A stretch of DNA of 64,000 bases from Halorarum salinum (lineage in GTDB: Archaea; Halobacteriota; Halobacteria; Halobacteriales; Haloferacaceae), in assembly GCF_013402875.1 (NCBI RefSeq), contig NZ_CP058580.1:1-64000 (forward strand). Reading direction: 5' to 3'. Below are positions 34,250 to 52,947 of this stretch, piece by piece. Both the position numbers and the translations under genes were made by a program. Each line of letters starts with the position of its first letter. Position 1 is the stretch's first letter. The notes below the pieces were generated by a model. It was not told the origin of the DNA. It searched no databases and saw nothing but the letters and a program-made list of their open reading frames with translations.

Positions 34250-34637
34250 GGTGGCGGTACGGTCGTGACCTCAATAAACGACGGGTCGACGTTCGTATCG
34301 CATGGTGATCGTATCACGACGGATTGGTGACCGGGCCGGACGTGGATCGAAACCGGACGCCGAACGGGGAGAACGGAGTCGTACGAGGCAAAACACCGGA
34401 ATCGCGTGGGACGTTCGGATCGCTCATCGTTCCGGGACGAGCACTCGCCGATCGGATACGTCCACCTGACATGACTACCACACCTATATATAAGGTATAT
34501 GTCATCAGGGCGGACGTCGCCCGGCGTCGACGGTTCGGACTGCGGGTCGATCGACGCGGGCGCGAGCCATGTCGCTGTCGAACCCTTTACCACCTCGCGG
34601 GTGTCAGGGTTCCACAACTGACTCGAGTGAAACACAC
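34250..34637. promoter_or_regulatory. Divergent intergenic region with AT-rich promoter core
   Basis: No credible gene is present in these 388 nt. The minus-strand promoter of the hypothetical gene is at 34271-34280. The plus strand has an exceptional AT run CTATATATAAGGTATAT (34484-34500) flanked by inverted CCTGA/TCAGG arms, and a second TATA-like CCCTTTAC (34583-34590) about 50 nt before the GTG at 34638. Two stacked promoters for the FAD/Fe-S gene are likely. Confidence 0.5.
34465..34509. promoter_or_regulatory. TATA-like core framed by inverted repeat
   Basis: CCTGA...TGAC (34465-34475) and GTCATCAGG (34501-34509) are imperfect inverted arms on either side of the AT run 34484-34500. The left arm has two extra bases between its half motifs. 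A regulator dimer spanning a promoter core would look like this. Confidence 0.4.
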
Positions 34638-37600
34638 GTGACGGCAAGCGAACGACACTCCCCGTTCGAGGAGGAGCACGACGACCCGGCGACCGACGCA
34701 CGCGCGAACTACGACTACGCGGGCGAGACCGTCGAGCGACCGGCGCTCGTGGCCGACATCGAGGGACTCGTCGACGGCGAGGTCCGCTTCGACGAGTACA
34801 CCCGCCAACTGTACGCCACCGACGCGAGCATCTACGAGGTGACGCCGGTCGGCGTCGTCTTCCCGCGGGACACCGCCGACGTGAGCGCGACCGTCGAGTA
34901 CTGTGCCGAGCGGGAGATCCCCGTGCTCCCCCGGGGGGGCGGCACCAGCCTCGCCGGCCAGGCCGTCAACGAGGCGGTCGTCCTCGATCTGGCCCGCCAC
35001 ATGGACGACGTCGTCGAGGTCGACCCCGACGCCCGACGCGCGCGCACCCAGGCCGGCGCCGTGCTGGCCGACGTCAACGCGGAACTGGCCCCGCACGGGC
35101 TGAAGTTCGCGCCCGACCCGGCCGCAGGCAACCGGAGCGTCATCGGCGGCGCCATCGGCAACAACTCGACGGGCGCCCACTCGCTGAAGTACGGCAAGAC
35201 CGACGCCTACGTCGAGTCCTGTGAAGTCGTCCTCGCGGACGGCACGGTCACGACGTTCGGCGAACTCACGCTCGCGGAACTCCGCGACCGCGCGGACCCC
35301 GGGGGCGACCTCGAGGCCCGCATCCACGCCGAGGTCGCCCGGATCGTCGACGAGGACGCCGACGAGGTGGTGGCGCGCTACCCCGACATGAAGCGGAACG
35401 TCTCGGGGTACAACCTCGACGTGCTGATCGAGGAGGCGCGCGAGGGATCGGTGAACCTGGCGCGCCTGCTGGCCGGCAGCGAGGGGACGCTCGCGGTCGT
35501 CACGGAGGCCGAGGTGTCGCTCGAACCCGTGCCGGAGACGAAGTCGCTCGCGTTCCTGACCTACCGGAGCGTCGTCGACGCGATGGAGGACGTGCCCCGC
35601 ATCCTCGAACACGACGCGGCCGCCGTCGAACTCATCGACGACGTGCTGCTCGACCTCGCGCGCGACACCGCCGAGTTCGAGGAGGTCGCGGGGATGCTCC
35701 CCGACGGGACCGAAGCGGCGCTGCTGGTCGAGTTCTACGCCGAGACGGACGCGGCCGGCGAGCGGAAGGTCGCCGACCTGATCGCCGACCACGTGCCCGA
35801 CGGGGGTGGGGACGCGGGCGCCGAGGGCACCGACGACACGCCCGCGTTCGCGGCGCTCGAGGCCCACGACGACGCCGAGCGGGCGGCGTTCTGGAAGCTC
35901 CGCAAGTCGGGGCTCCCCATCCTGCTGGGCCGGACCTCGGACGCGAAGCACGCCTCGTTCATCGAGGACTGCGCCGTGCCGCCCGAGCACCTGGCCGAGT
36001 ACGTCCAGGGGTTCCAGGAGATCCTCGCCGAGCACGACACGTTCGCGTCCTTCTACGCGCACGCGGGCCCGGGGGTCCTCCACGTCCGCCCGCTCGTGAA
36101 CACCAAGGAACCCATCGAGGTCGAGGCGATGGAGTCCATCGCGGACGCGGTCACCGACCTGGTCGTCGAGTACGGCGGGTCGGTGTCCGGGGAACACGGC
36201 GACGGGCGCGCCCGGACCCAGTGGAACCGGAAGCTGTACGGCGACGCGCTCTGGGAGACGTTCCGCGACCTGAAGGCAGCGTTCGACCCGGACTGGCTGC
36301 TCAACCCCGGGCAGGTCTGTGGCGACGCGAGGATGACCGAGAACCTCCGGTTCGACCCCGAGTACGAGTTCGACGCCGGCCTCGACCCCGCGCTCGAGTG
36401 GGACAACGAGAACGGCTTCCGGGGGATGGCGGAACTCTGTCACGGCTGTGGCGGCTGTCGGGGCAAGCAGGACACGACCGGCGGCGTCATGTGTCCGACC
36501 TACCGGGCCGCCAACGAGGAGATGCTCTCGACCAGGGGGCGGGCGAACATGCTGCGGCAGGCGATGAGCGGCGACCTCCCGGAGGGCGAGCAGTTCGACG
36601 TGGAGTTCATGCACGAGGTGTTGGAGCTCTGCATCGGCTGCAAGGGCTGTTCGCGCGACTGTCCCAGCGAGGTCGACATGGCGAAGCTGAAGGCCGAGGT
36701 GACCCACGAGTACCACGAGCGCAACGGGTCGAGCCTCCGCGACCGCCTGTTCGCGAACGTGGACACGTTCGCCGCGCTCGGGAGCGCGACCGCCCCCGTC
36801 TCGAACTGGGCGACGAAGGTGCCCGGCGCCCGCCGCGCGCTGGAGGCGGCCGTGGGGATCAGCCGCGACCGCGAACTGCCGGCGTTCGAGCGCGAGACGC
36901 TGCTCGACTGGTGGGCCGACCGGGGGCCCCGGGTCCCCGAGTCCGACGCGGCCCGGAAGGCGGTGCTGTTCCCGGACACGTTCACGAACTACGCGAACCC
37001 GGCGCTCGGGAGGGCGGCGGTCCGCGTGCTCGAGGCCGCCGGCGTCCACGTGGACGTGGCGGAGCAGACGGACTCCGGGCGGCCCGCCCACTCGAAGGGG
37101 TTCCTCGACCGGTCGCGGGCGGCCGCGGCGGCGAACGTCGAGGCGCTCGAACCGCGAGTCGCGGACGGCTGGGACGTCGTGCTCGTCGAGCCCTCCGACG
37201 CCGTGATGTTCCAGTCGGACTACCGCGACCTGCTCGGCGAGGAAGCCGACCCGCTCGCGAGCAACACGTACGGCGCGTGCGAGTACGTCGATACGTTCCG
37301 GCTGGACGAGGGAGTGGACTGGGCGGCCCCGGCGGAGTCGGACCCGCTGGTGTACCACGGCCACTGCCACCAGAAGTCCACGAAGAAGGATCACCACGCG
37401 GTCGGCGTGCTCCGGCGGGCCGGCTACGAGGTGGCTCCGCTCGACTCCGGATGCTGTGGGATGGCGGGGACGTTCGGCTACGAGGCCGAGCACGACTCGC
37501 TCAGCCGCGCCATCGGGGGCATCCTCGGCGATCAGATCGCGGACGCACCGGACGGGACGGTGGTCGCGCCGGGCGAGTCCTGTCGCTCGCAATTGGAAGA

Positions 37601-37661
37601 CGTCGTGGGCGAGCGGGAGCCGCCCCACCCCGTCGAGGCGTTGGCGGCCGCGCTGGACTGA
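34638..37661 (+). CDS. FAD-linked oxidase / Fe-S / CCG-domain fusion (D-lactate or D-2-hydroxyacid dehydrogenase type)
   Basis: This protein has about 1007 residues. The order is an FAD-binding PCMH domain (VLPRGGGTSLAGQAV, IGGAIGNNSTGAHS), an FAD-linked oxidase C-terminal domain with GSVSGEHGDGRART, a di-cluster 4Fe-4S domain (LCHGCGGCRG...CPTY and LCIGCKGCSRDCPSEVD), then a CCG domain (HGHCHQKS, DSGCCGMAGTFGYE). This is the GlpC-fused Dld/GlcD-type architecture that oxidises D-2-hydroxy acids and passes electrons to the quinone pool or another carrier. I chose the GTG at 34638 because the ATG at 34569 adds residues unlike the family and lies before the proximal TATA box. The substrate is uncertain: D-lactate, glycolate and D-2-hydroxyglutarate are options. 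Confidence 0.88.
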   Translation: MTASERHSPFEEEHDDPATDARANYDYAGETVERPALVADIEGLVDGEVRFDEYTRQLYATDASIYEVTPVGVVFPRDTADVSATVEYCAEREIPVLPRGGGTSLAGQAVNEAVVLDLARHMDDVVEVDPDARRARTQAGAVLADVNAELAPHGLKFAPDPAAGNRSVIGGAIGNNSTGAHSLKYGKTDAYVESCEVVLADGTVTTFGELTLAELRDRADPGGDLEARIHAEVARIVDEDADEVVARYPDMKRNVSGYNLDVLIEEAREGSVNLARLLAGSEGTLAVVTEAEVSLEPVPETKSLAFLTYRSVVDAMEDVPRILEHDAAAVELIDDVLLDLARDTAEFEEVAGMLPDGTEAALLVEFYAETDAAGERKVADLIADHVPDGGGDAGAEGTDDTPAFAALEAHDDAERAAFWKLRKSGLPILLGRTSDAKHASFIEDCAVPPEHLAEYVQGFQEILAEHDTFASFYAHAGPGVLHVRPLVNTKEPIEVEAMESIADAVTDLVVEYGGSVSGEHGDGRARTQWNRKLYGDALWETFRDLKAAFDPDWLLNPGQVCGDARMTENLRFDPEYEFDAGLDPALEWDNENGFRGMAELCHGCGGCRGKQDTTGGVMCPTYRAANEEMLSTRGRANMLRQAMSGDLPEGEQFDVEFMHEVLELCIGCKGCSRDCPSEVDMAKLKAEVTHEYHERNGSSLRDRLFANVDTFAALGSATAPVSNWATKVPGARRALEAAVGISRDRELPAFERETLLDWWADRGPRVPESDAARKAVLFPDTFTNYANPALGRAAVRVLEAAGVHVDVAEQTDSGRPAHSKGFLDRSRAAAAANVEALEPRVADGWDVVLVEPSDAVMFQSDYRDLLGEEADPLASNTYGACEYVDTFRLDEGVDWAAPAESDPLVYHGHCHQKSTKKDHHAVGVLRRAGYEVAPLDSGCCGMAGTFGYEAEHDSLSRAIGGILGDQIADAPDGTVVAPGESCRSQLEDVVGEREPPHPVEALAAALD

Positions 37662-37738: not shown

Positions 37739-38965
37739 TCAGTACCGGCCGACGTTCGCGATCGGCGGGCCGCCCCGCGGCCCGTACGGCGCGTCGTCGA
37801 GCCACTCGCCGGCGTCCTCCCAGTAGTCGGACAGCCCCGCGGCGGCCCGCTTCTTGAACTTCGTCACGACGCCGTCGCCCTGGAGGTACTCGAGCGCCTC
37901 GCCGGCGGCGTTCTTGTTGTACTCGGCGGCCGTCTCGCGCCGGGAGGCGTACAGTTCGACCTCGGCGCGGGCGACGCCGCGGCTCCTGGCCCGCGAGGCG
38001 ACCGCGATGGCCGAGGCCGCCTCGTCGGCGTCGGCGATGCCGGAGTTCATCCCCCGGGCGCCGAACGGCGCGAACAGGTGGCCGGCCTCGCCCGCGAGCA
38101 GCACCCGCCGGTGCTCGTCGACGAACGTGTCCGCGGTGACCTGCTTGAACTGGTAGGAGGAGACCCACGCGACGCGGTCGCGGTAGCGCTCGCCGAGCGT
38201 CGTCGCGACCATGTCGCTCACGGCCTCGTCGCTGGCGAGGCGCTCGGGGTCGTCGGTCACCTTGCACTGGATGTCGACGCGCCACCCGCCCGTGAACGGG
38301 ACGAGCAGGACGTTCCGGCCGTCCAGGTCCGGGTGGTCGTAGTGGAACACGCGCTCGTGGTCGCGCGGGTTCTCGGGGTCCTCGTCGACGTCTGCGATGA
38401 TGAACGAGTTCTCCGACTGGCTCCCGTCGAACTCGGAGCCGATCTCCTTGCGGACCGTCGAGCCGGCGCCGTCGGCGCCGACGACGTACGGCGACTCCCA
38501 CTCCTCGCCGTCCTCGGTCACGACGCGGACGCCGTCGGCGCTCGACTCGACCGTCTCGACCGTCGAGTCCCAGTGGACGTCGACGCCGACCTCCTCGAGC
38601 GTCTCGAGGAGGAAGTCCTCGGTGTCGACCTGCGGCAGGCTGGTGAAGTGGGGCAGGTCGCCGCTGCCGCCGGGGGTGGAGTAGGTGCGCGAGAACACCT
38701 CCTTGCCCCGCCACAGCGTCCGCCGGGTGGGCCACACGAGGCCGGCGTCGGCGAGCCGCTTCCCCAGCCCATCGTGGTTGCGTTCGAGGGTGTGGAGCGT
38801 CGAGCCGTGCACGTAGATCGCCCGGCTTCCCGGCCGTTCACGGTCCTCCGACTCCGCCTCGAGGACGACGGCCGGAACGCCCCGCGCCTCCAGCGCGAGC
38901 GCGGCGGTCATCCCGGTCGGCCCGGCACCGGCGACGACGACGGGTTCGTCGTGACTCTCGGACAT
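37739..38965 (-). CDS. FAD-dependent aromatic-type monooxygenase
   Basis: This 408-residue protein has an N-terminal Rossmann motif VVVAGAGPTGMTAALALEARG (GxGxxG), the middle strand YVVGADGAGSTVRKEIG (DG motif for FAD and NADPH), and VLLAGEAGHLFAPFGARGMNSGI (GD-type FAD motif with Glu in place of Asp). This is the flavoprotein hydroxylase family that hydroxylates phenolic acids or their CoA esters. ATG 38965 is chosen because the motif follows within 10 residues. It diverges from an aldehyde dehydrogenase and lies near gentisate dioxygenase, so hydroxylation giving gentisate or gentisyl-CoA is plausible. That assignment is inferred. Confidence 0.85.
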   Translation of the reverse strand: MSESHDEPVVVAGAGPTGMTAALALEARGVPAVVLEAESEDRERPGSRAIYVHGSTLHTLERNHDGLGKRLADAGLVWPTRRTLWRGKEVFSRTYSTPGGSGDLPHFTSLPQVDTEDFLLETLEEVGVDVHWDSTVETVESSADGVRVVTEDGEEWESPYVVGADGAGSTVRKEIGSEFDGSQSENSFIIADVDEDPENPRDHERVFHYDHPDLDGRNVLLVPFTGGWRVDIQCKVTDDPERLASDEAVSDMVATTLGERYRDRVAWVSSYQFKQVTADTFVDEHRRVLLAGEAGHLFAPFGARGMNSGIADADEAASAIAVASRARSRGVARAEVELYASRRETAAEYNKNAAGEALEYLQGDGVVTKFKKRAAAGLSDYWEDAGEWLDDAPYGPRGGPPIANVGRY

Positions 38966-39088: not shown

Positions 39089-40567
39089 ATGGCGCAGGAA
39101 GCCGCGGAGAGCCTCGGAATCGGCGGGAACTGGGATCGCATGTACGTCGACGGGGAGTGGCGCGAGACGTCCGATCGACGACGGCTGAGCGTGGAGAACC
39201 CCGCGACGCGAGAGGAGATTGCCACCGTCCCCGAGGGGAGACCCGAGGACGTGGACGAGGCGTTCGAGGCGGCGCTCGCCGCCCAGGAGGGGTGGGCGGC
39301 CCGGCCCCCGCAGGCGCGCGCGGAGGTCGTCCAGGCGGCGATGCACGTGATGGACGAGCACGGGGACGAACTGTCGGAGGTGCTCATCGCCGAGGGCGGG
39401 AGCACCCACGTGAAGGCCCACACCGAACTCGACGTCCTCGCACCCGGGATGATGGCCGAGGCGGCCGGTTTCCCGACGCGCTCGCAGGGGACCCACTCCG
39501 ACTCGGTCATCCCCGGCAAGGAGAACGAGGTCCGGCGGGTGCCGAAGGGCGTCGTCGGCGTCATCACGCCGTGGAACGTCCCGTTCCACCTGTCGATGCG
39601 CGCGGTCGCGCCCGCCATCGCGCTCGGCAACGCGGTCGTGCTGAAGCCGGCGCCCGAGACGCCCATCGGCGGCGGCCTCGCGCTCGCGAAGGTGTTCGAG
39701 GAGGCGGGGCTCCCGCCGGGCGTGCTCAACGTGGTCCCGGGCGGGGCCGACCCCGGCGACGCCGTCGCCTCCCACCCCGACGCGGACGTCGTCTCGTTCA
39801 CCGGCTCCTCGGAGGTCGGGAAGCTCGTCGCACGGAACGCGGGCGAGAACCTCTCGCTGCCGGCGCTCGAACTCGGCGGCAACAACCCCCACGTCGTGCT
39901 GGAGGACGCGGACCTCGACCTGGCGGTCGACACGGCCGTTTTCGGCTCGTTCTTCCACCAGGGGCAGATCTGCATCTCCATCAACCGCCACCTCGTCCAC
40001 GAGTCGCTGTACGACGAGTACGTCGACGGGCTGGCCGAGCGCGCGGCGGCGCTGGAGGTCGGCGACCCCGCCGAGGGCGCGGACGTGGGGCCGATCATCA
40101 ACGAGCAACAGCGCGACCAGATGGTCCAGTTCGTCGAGGAGAGCGTCGACGCCGGCGCCCGCGTCGTCGCCGGCGGCGGCCACGAGGACCTGTTCGTCGA
40201 GCCGACGGTGCTCGCGGACGTGACGAACGACATGCCGACCGCGTGTAACGAGCACTTCGGCCCCATCGCGCCGGTCATCCCCTTCTCGGACGAGGAGGAG
40301 GCCCTCGAGATCGCCAACGACACCGAGTACGGGCTCACCGGCTCGGTCGTCTCGGAGGACCTGGGGCGGGCGAAGGCGGTCGCCCGCCGCATCGACGCGG
40401 GGATGGTCCACGTCAACGACCAGCCGATCAACGACGAGCCCCACGTCCCGTTCGGCGGCGTGAAGGCGTCCGGGATGGGCCGCTACAACGGCGAGGCCAT
40501 CCTGCGCGAGCTCACCGAGGAGCGCTGGATCTCCGTCCAGCACGAGCCGCGGGAGTTCCCGATCTGA
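39089..40567 (+). CDS. NAD(P)+-dependent aldehyde dehydrogenase
   Basis: This 492-residue protein has the ALDH superfamily set: Asn in TPWNVPFHL, the cofactor Gly motif FTGSSEVGK, the general base Glu261 in LELGGNNP, and the catalytic Cys295 in FHQGQICISINRH. It oxidises an aldehyde to a carboxylic acid. The TATA-like box at 39059-39069 is about 27 nt from the ATG. Divergent pairing with a flavin monooxygenase and the nearby gentisate dioxygenase suggest an aromatic aldehyde, such as a hydroxybenzaldehyde, but the active site does not show it. Confidence 0.93.
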   Translation: MAQEAAESLGIGGNWDRMYVDGEWRETSDRRRLSVENPATREEIATVPEGRPEDVDEAFEAALAAQEGWAARPPQARAEVVQAAMHVMDEHGDELSEVLIAEGGSTHVKAHTELDVLAPGMMAEAAGFPTRSQGTHSDSVIPGKENEVRRVPKGVVGVITPWNVPFHLSMRAVAPAIALGNAVVLKPAPETPIGGGLALAKVFEEAGLPPGVLNVVPGGADPGDAVASHPDADVVSFTGSSEVGKLVARNAGENLSLPALELGGNNPHVVLEDADLDLAVDTAVFGSFFHQGQICISINRHLVHESLYDEYVDGLAERAAALEVGDPAEGADVGPIINEQQRDQMVQFVEESVDAGARVVAGGGHEDLFVEPTVLADVTNDMPTACNEHFGPIAPVIPFSDEEEALEIANDTEYGLTGSVVSEDLGRAKAVARRIDAGMVHVNDQPINDEPHVPFGGVKASGMGRYNGEAILRELTEERWISVQHEPREFPI

Positions 40568-40894
40568 CTGGCGGTTCGACGGGCGGATTCCCACGGCGCG
40601 TGCCGGCGCAGACGGAGCCGCGCCGGATGCGAGCGGGGGATGAGTGACCGACCGAGTGCCAGCGAGGGAGGGGCGAATCGGACGGAGAGGGCGAGGTGCG
40701 GTCGGGCGGGACTGAAAGGGGCCGCGGCTGTCGGGAACTTCGTCGCGACGCCCGAACGGATTCAGGAGCCGACCCGCACACGAGCTTTCGAGGTCGTCCC
40801 TGTCGCACCCTGACCGCGACCGCACCTCCGATCGACCCGGCAACACGAGGACCGATGGGCATGTTTTATGGTCGCACTCCCCCCACGACCTCCC
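40568..40894 (+). other. GC-rich intergenic stretch ending in the FAH copy 4 promoter
   Basis: I see nothing gene-like in most of these 327 nt. The last part contains TATA-like ATGTTTTATGG (40861-40871), about 29 nt before the ATG at 40895. Confidence 0.5.
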
Positions 40895-41767
40895 ATGCGA
40901 TTCGTCCACTTCGACGAGGGACGTCTGGGGCTGTTGACCGACGACGGCGTCGTCGACCTGACCGACCGCCTCGGCATCGACGCAGAGGACCCCCTCATCG
41001 AGTACATGGAGGGGGACTACGACGCGAGCGAGTACGCGGACGCCGACCCCGACTTCGACCGCGAGGAGGTCGACCTCCGCTCGCCCGTCCAGCGGCCGGG
41101 CAAGGTGATCGCCGCGCCGCTCAACTACGAGAAGCACATCGAGGAGGCCATCTCCGACAGGGACATCACCACCGAGGAGTGGTTCTCCATCGAGGACAAG
41201 GGCTACTTCCTGAAGGCGCCCTCGAGCGTCGTCGGCCCGGACCACGGCGTCGAACTCCCGTTCTCGGACCGCCGGACGGACCACGAGATCGAACTCGCGT
41301 TCGTGATGGGCAAGGAGGCCAAGGACGTCCCCGCCGAGGAGGCGTGGGACCACATCTTCGGCTACACGATCCTGCTCGACATCTCGGTGCGGGGCGACCA
41401 GGACCGCTCGAACCGGAAGTCCTACGACACGTTCACGGTGATCGGCCCGTGCGTCGTCACCGCCGACGAGATCGACGACCCGCAGGACCTCGAGATGGAG
41501 CTGCAGCTCAACGGCGAGACGCGCCAGCAGGAGAACACCGGCGACATGGTGTACACCTGCGCGGACGTCGTCCAGTACGCCTCCATCGGCGCCACCGTCG
41601 AGGTCGGCGACGTCATCACCACGGGCACGCCCGAGGGCGTGAGCGAACTCCACGACGGCGACGTCATCGACGCCGAGATCGAGGACGTCGGCTCGATGAC
41701 CGTCGACGTGACCGGGGGGGACGTGGCGTTCGCGGACGTCGACGTGGCCAAGGGCGGCCAGGAGTAG
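40895..41767 (+). CDS. Fumarylacetoacetate hydrolase (FAH) family protein, copy 4 (candidate acylpyruvate hydrolase of the gentisate route)
   Basis: This 290-residue protein has an N-terminal domain MRFVHFDEGRLGLLTDDG and a FAH core: KVIAAPLNYEKHIEEA, KAPSSVVGPDHGVEL, DHEIELAFVMGKEA (metal ligands), YTILLDISVRGDQDRS and GDVITTGTPEGVSEL. It has the longest copy-specific N-terminus and diverges from the other three in this window. In the gentisate pathway, maleylpyruvate or fumarylpyruvate is cleaved by a FAH-family hydrolase. This copy is the closest of the four to gentisate dioxygenase, so it is the best candidate by position. The shared fold alone does not prove the substrate. Confidence 0.88.
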   Translation: MRFVHFDEGRLGLLTDDGVVDLTDRLGIDAEDPLIEYMEGDYDASEYADADPDFDREEVDLRSPVQRPGKVIAAPLNYEKHIEEAISDRDITTEEWFSIEDKGYFLKAPSSVVGPDHGVELPFSDRRTDHEIELAFVMGKEAKDVPAEEAWDHIFGYTILLDISVRGDQDRSNRKSYDTFTVIGPCVVTADEIDDPQDLEMELQLNGETRQQENTGDMVYTCADVVQYASIGATVEVGDVITTGTPEGVSELHDGDVIDAEIEDVGSMTVDVTGGDVAFADVDVAKGGQE

Positions 41768-43617: not shown

Positions 43618-44700
43618 TCAGGACGACGGCTCGGCCTCGGCGTAGAAGTTGAACGCCTCGAACACCGGCCGGTCGGTCATGCCCAGCAGGATCGCCTCGC
43701 CGTCCGGTTCGTGGTGGTGGACCCCGTCCGGGGGGACCACGAAGACGTCCCACTGGCCCCACTCGAGCGCCTCGTCGCCGACGTGGGTGACGCCCTCGCC
43801 CTCGATGACGAAGTACACCTCCGTCGCGTTGTGGAAGTGCGGGTCCGTCGGCTCGGTCAGGAGCTGGGCCCGGAACGACATCGTCGGGAACAGCGGCTCC
43901 TTCCCCGTCGCCGGGTTGACGTACGCGAGGCTGTAGCCGTCGTGCGGGTCGGGTTCATCGTTGTCGGACCGCTGGCGCAGCGACTCGAGCATCTCGTCCC
44001 AGCCGAAGCGGTACGGCGGCGTCGCCTCCCGGACCCCCTCGAACGGGCCCGGAATCTCGCCGTCGGACCGCTCGTTGGCGGGTCGCCCCCGCCCGTACTG
44101 GGAGTCCCAGTAGCCCTGGGTCTTCGTCACCGGCTGGCGCTCGAGTTCGTGGTTCTCGAACACCTGTCGCTTGTTGAGCGAGTCGAGGAACAGCGGCAGG
44201 TCGAGCACGTCGAGCCACGCGGCCGTCTCGTCCGAGTCGTTGACGTGGTCGTGCCACTCCCACTGTGGCGTCGTGACGAGGTCGTTGTCCCGCATCGGGA
44301 ACTCCTCGCCCGCGACGACCGTCTTCATCTCCTCGTGCCCGTCGATGGTGAAGCGGAGGGCGTTCGCCGAGTGCCGGTGTGACGGGGCGGTCTCGCCGGG
44401 CGAGACGGTCTGGACGCCGACGTAGATGGTGTTCGAGATGGCGTTCCCGAGCGAGGTGTTGATCGGGACCGCGACCCGCCGCTGGAACCCCGGCGGCAAC
44501 TCGGCGATGGGGACGTCCGCCTCGATGCCGTCGATGGCGGCCTGGATGTCGTCCCAGTGCCAGACGTCCGCCTCGGGGTCGTCCATCACGTTCCCGAAGT
44601 CGTCCTCCACCTCCCACAGCGGGCGGAGGCCGTGCTCGTCGAGGAGATCTCGGGTGTCCGAGCTCATCTCCAGGAGCTCCTCCGGCTCTTGCTGGGCCAT
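43618..44700 (-). CDS. Gentisate 1,2-dioxygenase (bicupin)
   Basis: This 360-residue bicupin has a first cupin with PSHRHSANALRFTIDGHEE (Fe(II)-binding His-x-His and Glu-like positions) and a second with DPHFHNATEVYFVIEGEGVTHVGDE. It also carries TPQWEWHDHVN and the GYWDSQYGRGRPANE segment found in gentisate/1-hydroxy-2-naphthoate dioxygenases. It cleaves gentisate (2,5-dihydroxybenzoate) with O2 to maleylpyruvate. ATG 44700 follows a TATA-like box on the minus strand (44725-44732). An in-frame ATG nine codons upstream is too near that box. No maleylpyruvate isomerase is visible in the window, so an isomerase may be elsewhere or unnecessary. Confidence 0.9.
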   Translation of the reverse strand: MAQQEPEELLEMSSDTRDLLDEHGLRPLWEVEDDFGNVMDDPEADVWHWDDIQAAIDGIEADVPIAELPPGFQRRVAVPINTSLGNAISNTIYVGVQTVSPGETAPSHRHSANALRFTIDGHEEMKTVVAGEEFPMRDNDLVTTPQWEWHDHVNDSDETAAWLDVLDLPLFLDSLNKRQVFENHELERQPVTKTQGYWDSQYGRGRPANERSDGEIPGPFEGVREATPPYRFGWDEMLESLRQRSDNDEPDPHDGYSLAYVNPATGKEPLFPTMSFRAQLLTEPTDPHFHNATEVYFVIEGEGVTHVGDEALEWGQWDVFVVPPDGVHHHEPDGEAILLGMTDRPVFEAFNFYAEAEPSS

Positions 44701-44724
44701 GGACAAAGGTTGGCACAGATTCAT

Positions 44725-44732
44725 CATAAGTG
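44725..44732 (-). promoter_or_regulatory. TATA-like box of gentisate dioxygenase
   Basis: ACTTATGA on the minus strand is centred 28 nt from the ATG at 44700 and supports that start. Confidence 0.5.
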
Positions 44733-44856
44733 TACTGGACGCGTACCCCCGCCGGTCGCCTCCGTCGTCGGATCTGCTCGCTCGCCCCCGGCGATGAGGT
44801 CGGTCGGCCGCGACGCCACCCGGCGAGCTGCCACGTCGTTTCCGCCGTCCTCGGGG

Positions 44857-45027
44857 CTACACCTGCGCGTCGAATATCTCGCCCGAGGGGAACACGGACC
44901 GGCAGTCCTCACAGACCATCTGCCCCTGGATGGCGTACTCCCAGAGCTTCCCGCCGCAGCTCAGGCAGTCGAAGTGCGCCCGGACGAACGGGTTCGACTC
45001 CGCGTAGATGTTGTCGAAATCGGCCAT
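44857..45027 (-). CDS. Zinc-ribbon microprotein (56 aa)
   Basis: This is a 56-residue protein. Two CxxC pairs (DCLSCGGK and VCEDCRSV), about 20 residues apart, form a classic zinc ribbon, with aromatic residues between them. It starts MADFDNIYAES and ends FDAQV. A strong TATA-like ATTTTTATG (minus strand, 45050-45060) lies about 28 nt upstream, supporting a real leaderless gene. It sits between the thioesterase and gentisate dioxygenase genes on the same strand. It may be a small regulatory or protein-binding zinc protein. I know of no assigned function. Confidence 0.75.
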   Translation of the reverse strand: MADFDNIYAESNPFVRAHFDCLSCGGKLWEYAIQGQMVCEDCRSVFPSGEIFDAQV

Positions 45028-45049
45028 GTCCGTACGTGGCGGCGGGAGC

Positions 45050-45060
45050 CATAAAAATCA
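45050..45060 (-). promoter_or_regulatory. TATA-like box of the zinc-ribbon microprotein
   Basis: TGATTTTTATG on the minus strand is 28 nt from the ATG at 45027. It is one of the clearest promoter elements in the window. Confidence 0.55.
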
Positions 45061-45085
45061 TGTCGCCCCCGGCGACGCGGACGGC

Positions 45086-45496
45086 TCAGTCGGCGGCGTA
45101 CGGCTCCATCGCCGCCCGGAGGTCGTCGGGCAGGTCCATCGATCCGTCGCCGCCCCGGCGGGCACACACCCGCTGTTCGTACCCCGAGAACGCCACCTCG
45201 CCGTCGTTCCGCGCGACGTACTCGAAGCGGACGCTGCGGGTCCCGAGGCTCGGCGTCAGTTCGACGGTCACGTCGTCGCCCGCCTCCACCGGCCGCTCGA
45301 ACTCGAAGTTCATCTCGACGAGCGGCAGCCCGAACCCCCGCTCCCGGGAGATCTCCCAGAACGGGAAGCCGATCTCCTGGACGAACATGTCCGAGGTCTC
45401 GTGGATGGCGTCGACGATGCGCGGGTAGTGCGCGATGCCGAACGGGTCCGTGTCCGAGAAGCGGACCGTCCAGACGCGCTCGAACGACCGGCTCAT
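45086..45496 (-). CDS. Hotdog-fold acyl-CoA thioesterase (4-hydroxybenzoyl-CoA thioesterase family)
   Basis: This 136-residue protein has the YbgC/4HBT pattern. VRFSDTDPFGIAHYPRI near residues 11-27 carries the catalytic Asp and the following Pro-Phe-Gly. A long helix (VDAIHETSDMFVQEIGF) and beta strands with VTVELTPSLGTRSVRFEY follow. It hydrolyses an acyl-CoA to the acid and CoA. Its start overlaps the stop of the synthetase beta subunit (ATGA), which puts a CoA-ester maker and a CoA-ester hydrolase in one operon. This makes sense only if the acyl group is changed in between, for example by hydroxylation. Confidence 0.88.
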   Translation of the reverse strand: MSRSFERVWTVRFSDTDPFGIAHYPRIVDAIHETSDMFVQEIGFPFWEISRERGFGLPLVEMNFEFERPVEAGDDVTVELTPSLGTRSVRFEYVARNDGEVAFSGYEQRVCARRGGDGSMDLPDDLRAAMEPYAAD

Positions 45497-46206
45497 CGCT
45501 CACCGTCCTCCAGCAGGACGAGCGCGTCGAGTGCCACCGCGCCACCTGCGCCCGCCAGCACGGGGTTCACGTCGACCTCGGCGATCCCCTCGCGTTCGAC
45601 CAGCAGATCGCCGACCGCACACACCACGTCCGCGAGCGCGTCCACGTCCGCGGCCGGCCCGCCGCGGTATCCCGCGAGCAACTTCGCCGCGGTCAGTTCC
45701 TCGATGGCCTCGCGCGCTTCCCCGCGGTCGAGGGGCGCCAGCCGGTGGCTCGTGTCCTCGTACACCTCCGTGAAGACGCCGCCGAGCCCCGTCAGCACGA
45801 CCGGGCCGAACGAGGGGTCCCGCAGCCCCCCGACGATGACCTCGGTCCCGGCGTCCACGTCGCGGGCCTCCTCGACGAGCACCTCGGCGTCGATCCCCTC
45901 CGCGTCCGCGGCGTCGAACACGCGCTCGGCGGCCGTCTCGACCGCATCGCGGTCCGCGAGGCCGAGCGCGACGCCCGCGCCGTCGGCCCACTCGCTCTTG
46001 TGGGCCACCGACGGCGAGGAAACCTTCAGGACGACCGGGAAGCCGATATCGGCTGCCGCGTCGGCGGCCGCTGCCGGGTCGTCGGCGACGGCGAACTCGG
46101 TCGTCGCCACGCCCGCGTTCGCGAGCAACGCCTTCGCCTCGGCCTCCGTGAGCGTCGTCCGCCCGTCCGCCCGGGCCGCGGCGACGGGGTCGTCGGACTC
46201 AGACAT
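45493..46206 (-). CDS. ADP-forming acyl-CoA synthetase, beta (ATP-grasp) subunit
   Basis: This 237-residue protein is an ATP-grasp domain with FPVVLKVSSPSVAHKSEWADG (His-Lys motif), EEARDVDAGTEVIVGGLRDPSFGPVVLTGLGG and a late VDVNPVLA. These mark the beta subunit of acetate/acyl-CoA ligase (ADP-forming). The enzyme turns acid + CoA + ATP into acyl-CoA + ADP + phosphate, through a phosphohistidine in the alpha subunit. The gene overlaps alpha by 8 bases upstream and the thioesterase by 4 bases downstream. As I recall, many haloarchaea encode alpha and beta as one fused chain, so split subunits are notable. Confidence 0.9.
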   Translation of the reverse strand: MSESDDPVAAARADGRTTLTEAEAKALLANAGVATTEFAVADDPAAAADAAADIGFPVVLKVSSPSVAHKSEWADGAGVALGLADRDAVETAAERVFDAADAEGIDAEVLVEEARDVDAGTEVIVGGLRDPSFGPVVLTGLGGVFTEVYEDTSHRLAPLDRGEAREAIEELTAAKLLAGYRGGPAADVDALADVVCAVGDLLVEREGIAEVDVNPVLAGAGGAVALDALVLLEDGER

Positions 46207-47575
46207 CGGCGCTCACCTCCGCCTCCGCGGCGCCGTCCCCCAGCCCCGCGTACCGCGCGAGGAGCGCGGTCGCCTCGGCCGCCCGTTCGGGCGAGGTGAA
46301 CGTCGGCACGCCCGCCTCGCGCAGCGCCGCGAGTTCGTCGTCCATCGCCCCCGGCGGCCCCTCCGAGGCGAACAGGACCGGCTTGCCGACGCGCTCGGCC
46401 AGGCCGTCGAGCGCGTCGACGGGGAAGCCGAGCGCCTCCTCGAACAGTTCGTACACGAGGACGACGTCGACGGCGTCGTCGGCCGCGACGGTCTCGATCA
46501 ACTCGCCGAACTCGGGCATCGGCCGGCCCGTGTCGACCGGGTTGTCCGCGAACGTGATCCCCGGGAGCACCTCCTCGACGCGCTCCTGGGTGTCCTCGGA
46601 GAGTTCTGGGAGCGTCGCGCCGGCGCGCTGGAGGCGGTCGGCGACGATGATTCCGGGCCCGGCCTGGGCGGTCACGACGCCCACGTTCGCTCCCCCGGGC
46701 GCGGGCGAGTTCGCCAGCGCGAGGCCCGCGTCGAGCAGCGCGGAGGTCGAACCGACCGTGGGGACGCCGTACTGGGCGAACCCCGCCGTGTAGAGGTCGT
46801 GATCGCCCGTGAGCGCCCCGGTGTGCGACTCGGCGAACTCGCCGACGTCGGACTGGCCGACCTTGTACGCGACGACGGGCGTCTCGGCAGCGCGGCACGT
46901 TTCGAGCAGCGAGCGACCGTCGTCGGTCCCCTCCACGTGGAGGACGATGGCGCCGGTGGCCGCGTCGCCGTCGAAGTAATCGATCGCCTCCTCGAAGCCG
47001 ACGTTCGCTCGGTTGCCCAGTCCCACCATCGCCGAGATCCCGCGCCCCTCCCGCAGCGCCTGGAAGGCGAGTTGATGGGCCACACCGCCGCTCTGGGCGA
47101 GTATGGCGACGTTGCCGGGGCGGAACCCCTCGACGCCGCTGGCAAAGGAGGCGAGCAGGTTCGACCGCGGCACGACGAAGCCGCTCGTGTTCGGGCCCAG
47201 CAGCGCCACGTCGCCGGCGGCGGCCACCTCGACGATGCGCTCCTGGAGCGCCTCGCCCTCCTCGCCGGCCTCGGCGAAGCCGCCGGCGTAGATGACTGCG
47301 CCGCCGACGTCCGCCTCGCCGCACTCCTCGAGCACGTCGGGGACGACCGGGCCGGGCACGCAAAGCAGCGCGAGGTCGACGGGTTCGTCGACGTCGGCCA
47401 CCGAGGGGACGAACTCCTCGCCGAGGACGCTGCCCTCGGCGGACGGGTTGACGGGGTAGACCCGGCCGTCGAACTCGACGGCGTTGGCCATCGCCTCGTA
47501 GCCGATCTTCCGCTCGTCGGTGGAGGCGCCGACGACCGCCACGGTCCCCGGATCGAACAGGCGTGTCAGGTTCAC
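46199..47575 (-). CDS. ADP-forming acyl-CoA synthetase, alpha (CoA-binding) subunit
   Basis: This 458-residue protein opens with the CoA-binding Rossmann domain (VAVVGASTDERKIGYEAMANAV, YPVNP), then two ligase-CoA domains with NVAILAQSGGVAHQLAFQA and the phosphorylated histidine in SHTGALTGDH. It works with the beta subunit encoded downstream to make an acyl-CoA from ATP. The operon promoter is a minus-strand TATA-like CGATTTAGCC (about 47596-47607), about 27 nt upstream. The acid used is not visible from sequence, and the thioesterase and gentisate dioxygenase nearby suggest an aromatic acid. Confidence 0.92.
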   Translation of the reverse strand: MNLTRLFDPGTVAVVGASTDERKIGYEAMANAVEFDGRVYPVNPSAEGSVLGEEFVPSVADVDEPVDLALLCVPGPVVPDVLEECGEADVGGAVIYAGGFAEAGEEGEALQERIVEVAAAGDVALLGPNTSGFVVPRSNLLASFASGVEGFRPGNVAILAQSGGVAHQLAFQALREGRGISAMVGLGNRANVGFEEAIDYFDGDAATGAIVLHVEGTDDGRSLLETCRAAETPVVAYKVGQSDVGEFAESHTGALTGDHDLYTAGFAQYGVPTVGSTSALLDAGLALANSPAPGGANVGVVTAQAGPGIIVADRLQRAGATLPELSEDTQERVEEVLPGITFADNPVDTGRPMPEFGELIETVAADDAVDVVLVYELFEEALGFPVDALDGLAERVGKPVLFASEGPPGAMDDELAALREAGVPTFTSPERAAEATALLARYAGLGDGAAEAEVSADV

Positions 47576-48289: not shown

Positions 48290-48505
48290 CGCTGATGACG
48301 TCTCCTCGCGGACGCGGCAAAGGTGTTTCCGCCGGACCGGCGTCCCCGTCGGGCGGCCGGCCCTCCGCCGCCCCGCGCCGTCCGCGTTCCGCCGGGTCCT
48401 CGCCCCGCCGTCGGCGCCGCGCCGCGGTCCTCGGCGGGAACCGTCCGCCGCCGGTTCCGAAACACACATGCCACGAACGTCCGTGGCCGGAGGTACCACG
48501 TCACC

Positions 48506-49915
48506 ATGACGGACCACCCCGACCTCCGCGCCCGGATCCCGGCGGCCGTCGACCCGTCGTGGCTCTCGGTGCCCGCGGGCCTGCTCGCGGCCGCCGGGGC
48601 GTTCGCGTACGCGCCGGTCGGCCGGGACGCGGCCGTCATGCTCGCCATCACGCTGTTCTGTGTCGCCCTCTGGATCGGTTCGCCGGTCGAGCCGTGGTTC
48701 ACCGGGCTCGTCTGTCTCGGCCTCGTCGGCGTGACGTTCTCCTCGGAGCTCGCGCTCGTCGGGTTCCGCTCGCCCGCGACGTGGCTCGTCGTGCTCGGCA
48801 TCCTGCTCGGCGAGGCGACCCGGCAGAGCGGGCTCGCGAACCTCGTCGAGCGCCGGGTGCTCCACGCGATGCCGGGCGCCGGAACGATGACCGCCACGGG
48901 GACGTACCGGTTCCTCCTCCTCGCCCTGTCGGCGGCCGCCCTGGGCTTCGTCGTGCTCGTCCCCTCCGCGCTCGTCCGCGTGCTCATCCTCGGGCCCATC
49001 CTCGTCTCGGTCGGCGACGTGTTCGCCGAGCGCCGGCCGAAGGTCGGCCTGTTCCTCGGCCCGCTGTTCGTCACCTACTACGGCGGCACCGGGATCCTCA
49101 CCGGCTCGCTCGCGAACATCATCATCACCGGCCTCGTCGAACCGGCCGGGCTCTCCATCGGCTGGGTCGAGTGGGCGACGTGGCTCGGACCGGTGATGAC
49201 CGTCGGCAGGTCGCTGGCCGTCGTCGCGGTCGCCTACGTCCTCTACCGGCCGCGCGAGTCGGCCGCGCTCGACCCCGCGGCCGGGTCGGCCGAGCGCCCC
49301 GGCGTCTCCCCGACCGAGCGCCGGATGCTGGCGTTCCTGCTCGTCGGCGTCGCCGTCTGGGCGACCGACTCGATCCACGGGCTCCACCCGCTGTACGGCG
49401 CGCTGGTCGTCGCGCTGCTCGCGTTCGCCCCCCGGATCGGCGTCGTCGGCTCGGAGGCGGTGGCCGAGGCGGACTTCTCCATCGTCTTCTTCCTCGGGGC
49501 CATCTTCGCCATCGCGGAGGGGCTCCAGCGGACCGCGTTCACCGCCGTCGCGGCCGAAGCCGTCCTCTCGCGGATGCCCGCGGACGCGTCGCTCCCGCTC
49601 GTCCTCGTCTTCGTCGTCGCCGCCGCCATCGCGCTCACGTTCGTGATGGAGGGACTCGCGGTCGCGAGCGTGCTGACGCCCGTGCTCGTCCCGTTCGCCG
49701 CGAGCGCGGGCATCCCGCTGCTCCCGGTCGCGCTGACCGAGGCGGTCGCGCTCAACACCTACTTCTTCCCGTACCAGTCGGCCGTGCTCGTCGCCATCCT
49801 GGGGCTGGACGTGGTCGACTCGATGGAACTGGTCAGGATGACGGCCGTCTGCTCGCTCGTCACGCTCGTCGTCCTCCTCCCGATCCAACTCGCGATCTTC
49901 GCGGTCGCGTTCTGA
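48506..49915 (+). CDS. SLC13/DASS-type anion transporter
   Basis: This 469-residue polytopic membrane protein has about 10-12 hydrophobic spans, with GGTGILTGSLANIIITGL near the middle and a C-terminal partner region (VALTEAVALNTYFFPYQSAVLV). These resemble the SNT-type sodium- and substrate-binding repeats of the divalent-anion:Na+ symporter family. The likely substrate is a dicarboxylate or other organic anion. The ATG at 48506 follows a GGAGGT site at 48489-48494, 11 nt upstream. It is divergent from the MBL hydrolase gene and lies near aromatic-acid genes, so uptake of an acid intermediate is plausible but unproven. Confidence 0.8.
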   Translation: MTDHPDLRARIPAAVDPSWLSVPAGLLAAAGAFAYAPVGRDAAVMLAITLFCVALWIGSPVEPWFTGLVCLGLVGVTFSSELALVGFRSPATWLVVLGILLGEATRQSGLANLVERRVLHAMPGAGTMTATGTYRFLLLALSAAALGFVVLVPSALVRVLILGPILVSVGDVFAERRPKVGLFLGPLFVTYYGGTGILTGSLANIIITGLVEPAGLSIGWVEWATWLGPVMTVGRSLAVVAVAYVLYRPRESAALDPAAGSAERPGVSPTERRMLAFLLVGVAVWATDSIHGLHPLYGALVVALLAFAPRIGVVGSEAVAEADFSIVFFLGAIFAIAEGLQRTAFTAVAAEAVLSRMPADASLPLVLVFVVAAAIALTFVMEGLAVASVLTPVLVPFAASAGIPLLPVALTEAVALNTYFFPYQSAVLVAILGLDVVDSMELVRMTAVCSLVTLVVLLPIQLAIFAVAF

Positions 49916-50083: not shown

Positions 50084-51625
50084 TCAGCCGAAGTGATCGT
50101 CGATGACCCGCCCGCGCTCGACCGTGCCGGTGTCGGTGCGCGGCAGCGGCTCCGTGCGGACGGCGTACGTCCGCGGGCGCTTGTAGTTCGCCAGCGAGCC
50201 GTGCTCTCGACAGAACTCGTCGAGGTCCTCCCCGTCCACCGAGCCGTCGGCGACCACCACCGCGGTGACCTTCCGGCCCCAGTGGTCGTCCTCGAGGCCG
50301 AACACGAGCGCCTCCTCGACGGCCTCGTGTCCGCCCAGCGCGTGCTCGACCTCGGCGGGGTAGACGTTCTCGCCGCCGCAGGTGAACATGTTGTCCACGC
50401 GGTCGACGACGTAGAGGTAACCGTCCTCGTCGACCCTGGCGACGTCGCGCGTCCGGAGCCACTCGCCGAAGTAGCTCTTCCGCTGTGCGGCCTCGTTGTC
50501 GATGTAGCCGTCCGACTTGCCCGGTCCGCGGGCGATGATCTCGCCCCGCTCGCCCGGGTCGACGGTCGCCTCCGGGTCGGGGTGTTCGTCCACCGGCGCG
50601 GGCTCGACGACCCGGAGCTCCCACGTGAACGCCTCCTTTCCGATGGTCCCCGGGTGCTCGTCCTGGGCCGACGGGTGCGCGAACGTGAGGTCGGGCCCCG
50701 CCTCCGTCATGCCGTAGGTGTTGTAGAGCCCCTCGGAGAGCAGCGATCGGGTCCGCTCGACGAGCTCCTCGGTAACGATGGCGCCGCCGGTCCGGACGTA
50801 CTCGAGCGACCCCGTGTCGTAGCCGACCTCCGCCTGGACGTCGTTCAGGGCGTCGAGCTGCGTCGGCACGGCGAGCAGCCCGGTCGCGTCGTGCTCCTCG
50901 ACGAGTTCGAGCGCCTCGGCCGGGTCGAAGCTCTCGTGGAGCACGACCGTCGCCCCGGCGAGGAAGTGCGGGTAGAGCCACGCGTCGGAGGTGACCATGT
51001 GGTACCACGGCGTCGTAACGATCGCCGTGTCGGTCTCGTCGACGCCGTGCTCCATGACGACCTGGACCGCGCCGTACCACATGTCCTCGCCGTCGAACGG
51101 CACCGCCTTCGGCCGGCTCGTCGTCCCGCTCGTGTAGAACACGGTGCACTCCTCGCCCGCGGGGAGGTCGGCGTGGAGCGTGTCGGCCGCCCCGTCGAGC
51201 ACGTCCTCGTACGACTCGACCCCGTCGGCGTCGAGCTCCCGGTCGCCGACGTGGATCGCCGTCCCGAACTCGCCCCGATCGAGCATCTCCAGCGCGGTGT
51301 CGGCGTTCGCGTCGTCGAAGACCAGCCCCTCTGCGTCCGCGTTCTCCGCCATCCGGACGAGCTCCTCCGCCATCCCCCGGAAGGAGAGCTGTACCGTCGC
51401 GGACCCCCGCTTGTGGCCGGCGATCATCGACTCGACCGCCGCGGGCCCGTTCAAGGCGAGGACGGCACACCGACCGCCGCCGAGCCTGTCGGAGAGGGCG
51501 TTCGCGAGCCGCGTGCTCCGCCGGTCGAACTCGTCGTAGGTGAACTCCCTGCCGTCGTCGGTGACGACGGCGGTCTCGTCGCCGTAACACCGGACCGTGC
51601 GCTCGAACGCCGATAAGTAGTTCAT
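50084..51625 (-). CDS. AMP-forming acyl/aryl-CoA ligase lacking the conserved C-terminal lysine
   Basis: This 513-residue protein is an ANL-family enzyme: P-loop YTSGTTSRPKAVPF (about 164-177), LYNTYGMTEAG, the hinge region RDVARVDEDGYLYVVDRVDNMF and GGENVYPAEVE. The C-terminal motif that normally reads PxxxxGK reads LPRTDTGTVERGR (Thr501), so the lysine that helps adenylate formation is absent. It may still work with another residue, carry only the thioester step, or be altered in activity. Its TATA-like CGTTAATATC (51658-51668, minus strand) lies about 35 nt upstream. It is a candidate 4-hydroxybenzoate-CoA ligase by context only. Confidence 0.88.
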   Translation of the reverse strand: MNYLSAFERTVRCYGDETAVVTDDGREFTYDEFDRRSTRLANALSDRLGGGRCAVLALNGPAAVESMIAGHKRGSATVQLSFRGMAEELVRMAENADAEGLVFDDANADTALEMLDRGEFGTAIHVGDRELDADGVESYEDVLDGAADTLHADLPAGEECTVFYTSGTTSRPKAVPFDGEDMWYGAVQVVMEHGVDETDTAIVTTPWYHMVTSDAWLYPHFLAGATVVLHESFDPAEALELVEEHDATGLLAVPTQLDALNDVQAEVGYDTGSLEYVRTGGAIVTEELVERTRSLLSEGLYNTYGMTEAGPDLTFAHPSAQDEHPGTIGKEAFTWELRVVEPAPVDEHPDPEATVDPGERGEIIARGPGKSDGYIDNEAAQRKSYFGEWLRTRDVARVDEDGYLYVVDRVDNMFTCGGENVYPAEVEHALGGHEAVEEALVFGLEDDHWGRKVTAVVVADGSVDGEDLDEFCREHGSLANYKRPRTYAVRTEPLPRTDTGTVERGRVIDDHFG

Positions 51626-51855: not shown

Positions 51856-52623
51856 TCACCGGTAGGCGAGGTTCAGTTCGACGTCGTTCGCCGCGGCCCG
51901 GAGGTGGTCGACGAGTTCGTCCTCGCACCGCTCCCTGCTGACGCGGTGGGCGGGACCGGCGATCGCGAGCGCGCCGTGGACCTCCTCCTCGAACAGCAGG
52001 GGGGCGGCGACGGCGTGGATCCCCTCGAGGTCCTCGCCCATGTTCAGGGCGTACCCCCGTTCGCGGATCGCCGTCAGGTCCTCGCGGAGCGCGTCGGCGT
52101 CCGTGACGGTGTTCGGGGTGCGGGCCGGCAGCCCGTGGCTGTCGACGACGTCCTCGACCGCCCCGTCCGGGAGGTGTGCGAGGATCGCCTTCCCCCCCGA
52201 GTTGCAGTGCATGTAGGCCCACGAGCCGACGAGCGTGTTCGCGTTGACGTTCGTCCTGCCCGCCCGCCCGTAGAGGTACATCACCCGTCCGTTCTGGTGG
52301 GTCAACAGCCAGACCATCTCGCCGGTCGTCCCCTCGAGCTCGTCGACGATGGGTTTCGCCGCCCCGCACACGTCGTACTGGTTCCGGACGTACTGGCCGT
52401 GGCTGAAGAACTGGAGCCCCAGGTGGTAGCTCGCCCCCCGCTTGACCACGAAGTCGTGGGCCTCCATCGACGCGAGGTGGTCGTGGACAGTGCTCTTCGC
52501 GAGTCCCGTCCGATCGGCCAGCTCCGTCACCCCCGCCCCGTCGACCTCCCGAAGGTGTTCGACGATGGAGAACAGCGTCTCGTCCGACTTCACCCCGCCG
52601 CCGCGCGCCCGGTCCCCGGTCAT
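51856..52623 (-). CDS. IclR-family transcriptional regulator, copy B
   Basis: This 255-residue protein has an N-terminal winged helix (VTELADRTGLAKSTVHDHLASMEAHDFV) followed by the IclR effector domain with MHCNSGGKAILAHLPDG and IHAVAAPLLFEEEVHGALAIAGP. ATG 52623 is favoured because a minus-strand TATA-like GAGTTTAGTAG (52648-52658) lies about 30 nt upstream. The in-frame ATG at 52704 would precede it. It lies upstream of the AMP-forming ligase on the same strand, making that gene and the gentisate cluster candidate targets. It is a paralogue of the regulator at 20356. Confidence 0.9.
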   Translation of the reverse strand: MTGDRARGGGVKSDETLFSIVEHLREVDGAGVTELADRTGLAKSTVHDHLASMEAHDFVVKRGASYHLGLQFFSHGQYVRNQYDVCGAAKPIVDELEGTTGEMVWLLTHQNGRVMYLYGRAGRTNVNANTLVGSWAYMHCNSGGKAILAHLPDGAVEDVVDSHGLPARTPNTVTDADALREDLTAIRERGYALNMGEDLEGIHAVAAPLLFEEEVHGALAIAGPAHRVSRERCEDELVDHLRAAANDVELNLAYR

Positions 52624-52947
52624 GTGGGGTGCTACTTCGCCCCGGCTACTAAACTCTTCAGCTCCCCGCCCTCGCCCGGGCGACGGAACCGAGCGATCCC
52701 GCACGAGCGGGCCGCCGCGACGCCCGTTTCGGTCTCACCGAACGCGACCCGCTCGCCACGGCGACTGCGGTGATTATTCGTGGCAGTTCGTCCGTTCGGC
52801 TATCCGTCGTCGGAGAACGGGCGAAATTTTCGGATTCGTTCGACGAGAGGGAACGGGTGTGGGGACGGAGGGCGTTACGCCGATAAGCGTGTAACGTTTC
52901 GCGGCGAACGCGCGGGTCGTCCGACGCGCTCGCGCCCGGTCCGGGGG
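52624..52947. other. Intergenic region between IclR regulator B and the SMC-related gene
   Basis: No gene is credible in these 324 nt. It holds the IclR promoter (52648-52658), scattered TATA-like elements such as TGATTATTCG near 52771-52780, and a stem candidate at 52873-52896. Confidence 0.45.
52873..52896. repeat. Inverted repeat CGTTAC-N12-GTAACG
   Basis: Perfect 6-bp arms enclose a nested ACGC/GCGT pair. On the minus strand this lies about 52 nt beyond the stop of the SMC-related gene, so it may be a 3'-end hairpin. The lack of a T-run argues against a simple terminator. Confidence 0.4.

Follow-up and report, generated by a model that had tools for sequence, protein, structure and literature searches.

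What route to gentisate is encoded by a haloarchaeal cluster in which a gentisate dioxygenase gene lies beside genes for both an acyl-CoA synthetase and an acyl-CoA thioesterase, and in which direction does the synthetase work? The question arises from the first 64 kb (positions 1 to 64,000; hereafter the window) of the second contig (NZ_CP058580.1, 239,483 bases) of the genome of Halorarum salinum. On its minus strand, acdA (46199-47575; 458 aa; Pfam Succ_CoA_lig PF13607/CoA_binding_2 PF13380) encodes the alpha subunit of a split ADP-forming acyl-CoA synthetase and overlaps by 8 bp acdB (45493-46206; 237 aa; ATP-grasp_5 PF13549), which encodes the beta (ATP-grasp) subunit. The acdB gene in turn overlaps by 4 bp the gene of a 4HBT (hotdog) acyl-CoA thioesterase (TE; 45086-45496; 136 aa; 4HBT_2 PF13279/4HBT PF03061). 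The bicupin gentisate 1,2-dioxygenase (GDO; 43618-44727; 369 aa; Cupin_2) is encoded just beyond, and an FAD monooxygenase (MO; FAD_binding_3) at 37739-38965, likewise on the minus strand. An initial annotation of the window had recognized these genes and proposed a CoA-dependent gentisate route; the open reading frame (ORF) calls and Pfam matches bear out the gene assignments. A CoA-ester route in which a monooxygenase of this family feeds GDO is probable, presumably for the breakdown of an aromatic acid of plant origin, and the reading that we favor, with a probability of roughly 0.4, is a full haloarchaeal pathway of the PhgABC kind in which AcdAB acts as the activator. In the bacterial phgABC route, 4-hydroxybenzoate is first joined to CoA, the ester is hydroxylated with a 1,2-shift, and hydrolysis then gives gentisate (Zhao et al., 2018, as described in PMC7862547). 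As in that system, where a CoA ligase, a flavin monooxygenase and a thioesterase feed gentisate, all four markers, GDO included, are present in the window. Unlike it, the window has an ADP-forming synthetase in an operon with the thioesterase, and no PaaK-type ligase in the cluster.

The gene set is real, conserved, and CoA-linked. In a comparison of 41 loci (the window and 40 relatives, taken as 20-kb stretches), the commonest families were GDO (34 loci), TE (32), acdA (31), an IclR-family regulator and a zinc-ribbon protein (30 each). These were followed by a fumarylacetoacetate-hydrolase (FAH) family protein (27), acdB and an AMP-forming ligase (23 each), an SLC13-type permease (19) and MO (15), the last count being low since MO is frequently located outside the 20-kb stretch. 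A frequent gene order is IclR, UbiA, AMP-forming ligase, SLC13, MBL and acdA-acdB-TE-zinc ribbon-GDO, and beyond GDO a Liv-type ABC transporter and FAH are often found. Among 293 genomes of the order Halobacteriales, MO was detected in 49, GDO in 47, TE in 40 and clade 1 of acdA in 39, and all four occurred in 35. Of the genomes with MO or GDO, 46 had both, three had MO without GDO and one had GDO without MO. Both TE (40/40) and acdA clade 1 (39/39) were restricted to GDO genomes. Fisher p values for the co-occurrence of acdA clade 1, TE and GDO ranged from 2e-42 to 4e-38, which overstates the number of independent events because the genomes are related. The identity limits behind the TE and acdA counts were chosen after the tables had been inspected: at least 50% for TE, which kept 40 of the 55 genomes with a match at E ≤ 1e-10 and dropped 15, among them G129 and G170, whose TEs are at 44%, and at least 64% for acdA clade 1, any acdA homolog being present in 271 genomes. 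Within the 47 GDO genomes, TE and acdA were both present in 36, TE only in four, acdA only in three and neither in four (p = 0.011).

The closest solved structures to GDO are all gentisate dioxygenases (2d40, 1.4e-46; 3bu7; 4fag), and its score against the gentisate dioxygenase model TIGR02272 is 202.9 bits, under the curated cut-off of 442.1. Against the YbgC/FadM model TIGR00051, TE scores 22.2 bits where the cut-off is 68.7, which speaks against a YbgC/FadM identity, a relationship that the initial annotation had named as refuting its proposal. The weak PDB matches of TE include 4-hydroxybenzoyl-CoA thioesterases.

The domain set of ADP-forming synthetases (Succ_CoA_lig/CoA_binding and ATP-grasp_5) is complete in AcdAB. 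The sequences SHTGAL in AcdA and HKSE in AcdB are the two phospho-histidine motifs of these enzymes, and the His-Lys pair is kept in 30/30 aligned beta-subunit rows. Domains and motifs are shared with the solved ADP-forming acyl-CoA synthetases (PDB 2csu, 4xyl, 8wzu, and 9y43); unlike these, the window AcdA belongs to a separate clade (support 100/100) tied to gentisate clusters. The clade unites it with a second haloarchaeal clade and with bacterial fused acd proteins encoded beside gentisate genes. A generic or acetate-type ADP-forming synthetase is thereby disfavored, and the grouping with acetate or isobutyrate enzymes that would have refuted the initial annotation is not seen. Every bacterial clade member examined (8/8) sits in a gentisate-type cluster: Kibdelosporangium (L146), a gammaproteobacterial metagenome-assembled genome (MAG; L171), Pseudarthrobacter (L219), Rhodococcus sp. 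p52 (L220), Massilia (L221), Rhizobium (L222), Streptomyces (L223), and Glutamicibacter (L225). These loci contain FAH in 8/8, GDO in 7/8 (missing only from L222, of which 11.3 kb was examined, and in L219, L220, and L225 recognized in part through the product name "cupin domain-containing protein"), an AMP-forming ligase in 7/8 (missing only from L171) and a detectable 4HBT thioesterase in 0/8. Their hydroxylases vary. The window's MO family serves in L146 and L171, and comparison places a different FAD hydroxylase family in L219 and L223, of which the L222 hydroxylase is a 37% relative. In L220 and L225 that different family is indicated by an FAD monooxygenase in the equivalent place, the L220 protein being without a match to the window MO, and no hydroxylase was seen in L221. 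A second acdA paralog is also found in haloarchaea, as a solo alpha subunit of ~442 aa (L097 16076-17401; L096 7938-9272) with ~49-56% identity to the window AcdA and an HTAAP-like motif instead of HTGAL. It occurs in 16 genomes of the survey, all with MO, and in L096 and L097, the loci that were read, no beta gene is annotated next to it.

The family of the monooxygenase gives a further indication of the chemistry. A scan of genome contigs yielded 262 relatives, of which the 80 that best matched a Streptomyces query protein were kept; this selection biases the bacterial proportions among the 80, where 66 adjoin pabB and AMP-forming ligases, nine occur with GDO and five with an AMP-forming ligase only. 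The GDO-linked set comprises Brevibacillus, Geobacillus, and Alicyclobacillus (Bacilli), Kibdelosporangium, and the gammaproteobacterial MAG. The Brevibacillus panacihumi locus runs from 3-hydroxyacyl-CoA dehydrogenase through MO, 4HBT thioesterase, a protein without assignment, GDO, FAH, and thiolase to an AMP-forming ligase; an ORF called ahead of MO there lacks any Pfam match. The Geobacillus order is PaaK-type ligase, MO, TE, FAH, and GDO. Between TE and GDO in the Brevibacillus locus (L132, 11696-12283) lies a 195-aa protein with no Pfam match, homologs of which occur in three other Bacilli loci (L118, L145, and L150). The MO homologs in the gentisate clusters of Bacilli are ~47-53% identical to the window MO, which belongs to the same family as the MO genes of these phg-like clusters, Brevibacillus included, PhgB itself being known by description only. 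The phgABC genes published by Zhao and colleagues in 2018 are said to come from Brevibacillus. MO is present in 8 of the 299 genomes of the Brevibacillus class and, in the class of the MAG (229 genomes), in the MAG itself only. A tree of 64 rows, built with 26 hand-picked loci of the 80 and two outgroup rows, separates the family from the outgroup (100/100) and supports a Bacilli clade (100/99) and a pabB-linked clade (100/98). On this tree the haloarchaeal MOs need two changes, and they may or may not form a single clade.

PnpA, p-nitrophenol 4-monooxygenase (6ain), is the solved protein closest to MO both in sequence and in predicted fold (mean pLDDT 88.1); unlike MO as proposed here, it takes no CoA substrate, and the identity is ~25%. 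Structure comparison beyond sequence confirmed the fold, with PnpA nearest, and gave nothing more. PnpA attacks the substituted carbon para to the phenol hydroxyl, and 4-hydroxybenzoate would be converted to gentisate in a single hydroxylation only by attack para to the hydroxyl with migration. The 66 actinobacterial loci (among L098-L177) carry pabB, AMP-forming ligases, and the MO homolog, with an ADC lyase homolog in the loci printed. It is likely that these clusters make a p-aminobenzoate-derived product using a hydroxylase of the MO family; a literature search found no product assigned to them. Because this large bacterial branch is linked to p-aminobenzoate, para-substituted benzoyl thioesters are the suggested substrates of the family. 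Isotope labeling in Haloarcula D1 showed that the carboxyl group migrates as 4-hydroxybenzoate is converted to gentisate (Fairley et al., 2002, as described in PMC3572157), and the latter paper states that, as of 2013, no gene sequence was available for the 1-hydroxylase. The overall reaction is the one proposed here, likewise in a haloarchaeon, but the isotope result came without a gene. No haloarchaeal 4-hydroxybenzoyl-CoA hydroxylase gene was found in our literature search, a weak negative in that subscription literature was little covered. For the archaeal gene, the MO family provides a concrete candidate that can be tested.

In the favored pathway, we infer the substrate, the regiochemistry, the direction of AcdAB, and the substrate of TE as follows. 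The split synthetase AcdAB would be the most likely enzyme to turn 4-hydroxybenzoate into 4-hydroxybenzoyl-CoA, the AMP-forming aryl or hydroxycinnamoyl CoA ligase candidate of the cluster (50084-51625, minus strand) being more likely to feed hydroxycinnamates or similar acids. The top PDB match of this ligase is feruloyl-CoA synthetase (8wev), and 4-chlorobenzoate-CoA ligase is within the top ten. MO, as a candidate PhgB-like 4-hydroxybenzoyl-CoA 1-hydroxylase, would then hydroxylate C1, para to the phenol hydroxyl, and the acyl-CoA group would move to C2 (NIH shift) to give gentisyl-CoA. TE, the candidate gentisyl-CoA thioesterase, would free gentisate and so pull the near-equilibrium AcdAB step. 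The ring would be opened by GDO, and the FAH-family protein (40868-41767, plus strand; PF01557) is a candidate for the hydrolase that completes the sequence.

The direction of AcdAB is the most disputable element of this pathway. In a more tentative alternative, the AMP-forming or PaaK-type ligase would activate the acid and AcdAB would convert gentisyl-CoA, ADP, and phosphate to gentisate, CoA, and ATP, with TE as a parallel, dissipating outlet. Against such a reversal, TE is operonic with acdA and positively associated with it among GDO genomes, and the solved relatives of AcdAB include 4-hydroxybutyrate-CoA ligase (8wzu) and 3-hydroxypropionate-CoA ligase (9y43), which are activating enzymes. 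A PaaK-type ligase is also almost confined to genomes without acd: it is present in 6/7 MO genomes that have neither acdA clade 1 nor the solo paralog, versus 1/42 that have an acd-clade gene (p = 3e-6). The best match to this haloarchaeal PaaK-type ligase in the window's own genome is 36% and chromosomal, and nothing close to the PaaK-type ligase of the Geobacillus cluster is present here. Several observations, however, weigh against AcdAB as the activator. The PaaK pattern amounts to three switches on the MO tree (31 labeled rows), that is, to about three independent events. Release by AcdAB can also explain part of it, because two of the six PaaK genomes (G114 and G227) are without any GDO and a third (G133) is only 77% complete. 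An AMP-forming ligase of at least 50% identity occurs in 26/49 rows of the neighbor table, and orthologs of it (73% and 59%) were found elsewhere in the genome in both of the two haloarchaea tested that lack a nearby copy. Three genomes of one genus (G076, G153, and G222) have acdA with no TE at E ≤ 1e-10, and the loci of two of them (G076 and G222, genus g4) hold an AMP-forming ligase, acdAB, MO, and GDO. In the bacterial fused acd loci, an AMP-forming ligase in 7/8, no thioesterase in 8/8, and hydroxylases of different families together fit release better than activation. Because the hydroxylase family varies, the shared partner of the acd clade would be gentisyl-CoA and not the starting acid. 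In the same direction, haloarchaeal acdA clade 1 always occurs with GDO, and MO is found without GDO in 3/49. It also counts against the favored pathway that PhgB is matched by route description and cluster context, not by sequence. It is possible, if somewhat doubtful, that the gentisate-linked clade, which haloarchaea share with actinobacteria and proteobacteria, functions as a gentisyl-CoA synthetase run backwards in vivo, with AMP-forming ligases activating. If so, thioester energy would be recovered as ATP, CoA-dependent ring hydroxylation would not be wasteful, and AcdAB would replace a PhgC-type thioesterase in bacteria. The clade thus raises a testable energy question, namely whether one ATP is paid for the CoA ester or one is gained when the ester is given up.

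The identity of the acid bears on the same choice. The 2006 work of Fairley and colleagues on gdoA reportedly also described acdB and tieA in two haloarchaea. In Haloferax D1227 both genes reportedly responded to benzoate, cinnamate, and phenylpropionate by induction, and in Haloarcula D1 they were reportedly unexpressed on 4-hydroxybenzoate, which weighs against the favored substrate. Should this account hold, the acdB-TE-GDO cluster had already been described, and the case for acdAB acting on 4-hydroxybenzoate loses strength, the expression pattern fitting benzoate better. The cluster would then serve the CoA-dependent degradation of benzoate (or cinnamate or phenylpropionate) to gentisate, benzoyl-CoA being hydroxylated twice as proposed for Haloferax D1227, an explanation that we consider unlikely. 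Compared by description, the gdoA/acdB/tieA system likewise combines acdB, a thioesterase, and gentisate dioxygenase in haloarchaea; it differs in its substrate pattern and in that the monooxygenase was reportedly not identified there. Reviews record that Haloferax D1227 grows on benzoate, 3-hydroxybenzoate, cinnamate, and phenylpropionate, degrading them via gentisate, and that a related dioxygenase serves Haloarcula D1 in the degradation of 4-hydroxybenzoate. However, benzoate needs two hydroxylations, and no second oxygenase was recognized among the conserved families of the 41 neighborhoods, in which small families are partly annotated; moreover, the bacterial MO family is linked to ligases and to p-aminobenzoate-type clusters. 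One hydroxylation and a CoA ester would suffice for salicylate, and the 5-hydroxylation of salicyl-CoA is the route to gentisyl-CoA in Streptomyces SdgABC. Rhodococcus sp. p52 and Pseudarthrobacter do have plasmid-borne clusters that combine a clade member with another FAD monooxygenase family, but the monooxygenase there differs (reaching no more than 22%, across 167 aa, against a member of the window family). The best NCBIfam match of the window MO is PRK08132, and no salicylyl-CoA hydroxylase model is among its top 25 of 68 matches. Salicylate is considered a very improbable substrate. Generic product names in the annotation ("acetate--CoA ligase family protein" and "acyl-CoA thioesterase", for example) would allow the genes to be unrelated neighbors, acdAB-TE acting on short-chain acids and GDO in a CoA-free gentisate route. 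The co-occurrence, the conserved order, and the gentisate-linked acdA clade, bacteria included, speak so strongly against this that it is scarcely credible. The CoA-dependent frame of the initial annotation has accordingly proved largely right, in view of the co-occurrence and of the MO and AcdA families, but 4-hydroxybenzoate is disfavored by the reported 2006 data and release of gentisate by AcdAB competes with activation. The present comparison adds the MO family and the bacterial clusters in which it occurs, a dedicated clade of synthetases, the swap of ligases, and the question of AcdAB direction.

The initial annotation had overlooked the AMP-forming ligase gene, an IclR-family regulator (51856-52704, minus strand; PF01614/PF09339), and a 56-aa zinc-ribbon-like protein with a CxxC...CxxC pattern, encoded between TE and GDO (44857-45027, minus strand). 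In the compared loci, the zinc-ribbon gene mostly adjoins GDO, and both CxxC motifs are kept in 30/30. On the plus strand, an SLC13-type permease (48323-49915) is assigned from the annotation of the same-place gene in Halobaculum halophilum, and an aldehyde dehydrogenase (39089-40567; PF00171) is a cluster member in 11/41 loci. A small acidic protein of ~106 aa (family f17; L039 17446-17955) is encoded head to head with MO in many relatives, and no protein of this type was found near MO within the window. A large FAD/Fe-S oxidoreductase (GlcD plus GlpC-like) is encoded at 34569-37661, and its family occurs in 12/41 loci. Among the named relatives seen, a plasmid of H. halophilum is the closest, with 90.4% identity in MO and 91.1% in GDO. 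An ORF at 32334-33545 resembles, as judged by eye, a site-specific integrase, and H. halophilum has an annotated integrase on the same flank of the cluster; the region may therefore be mobile.

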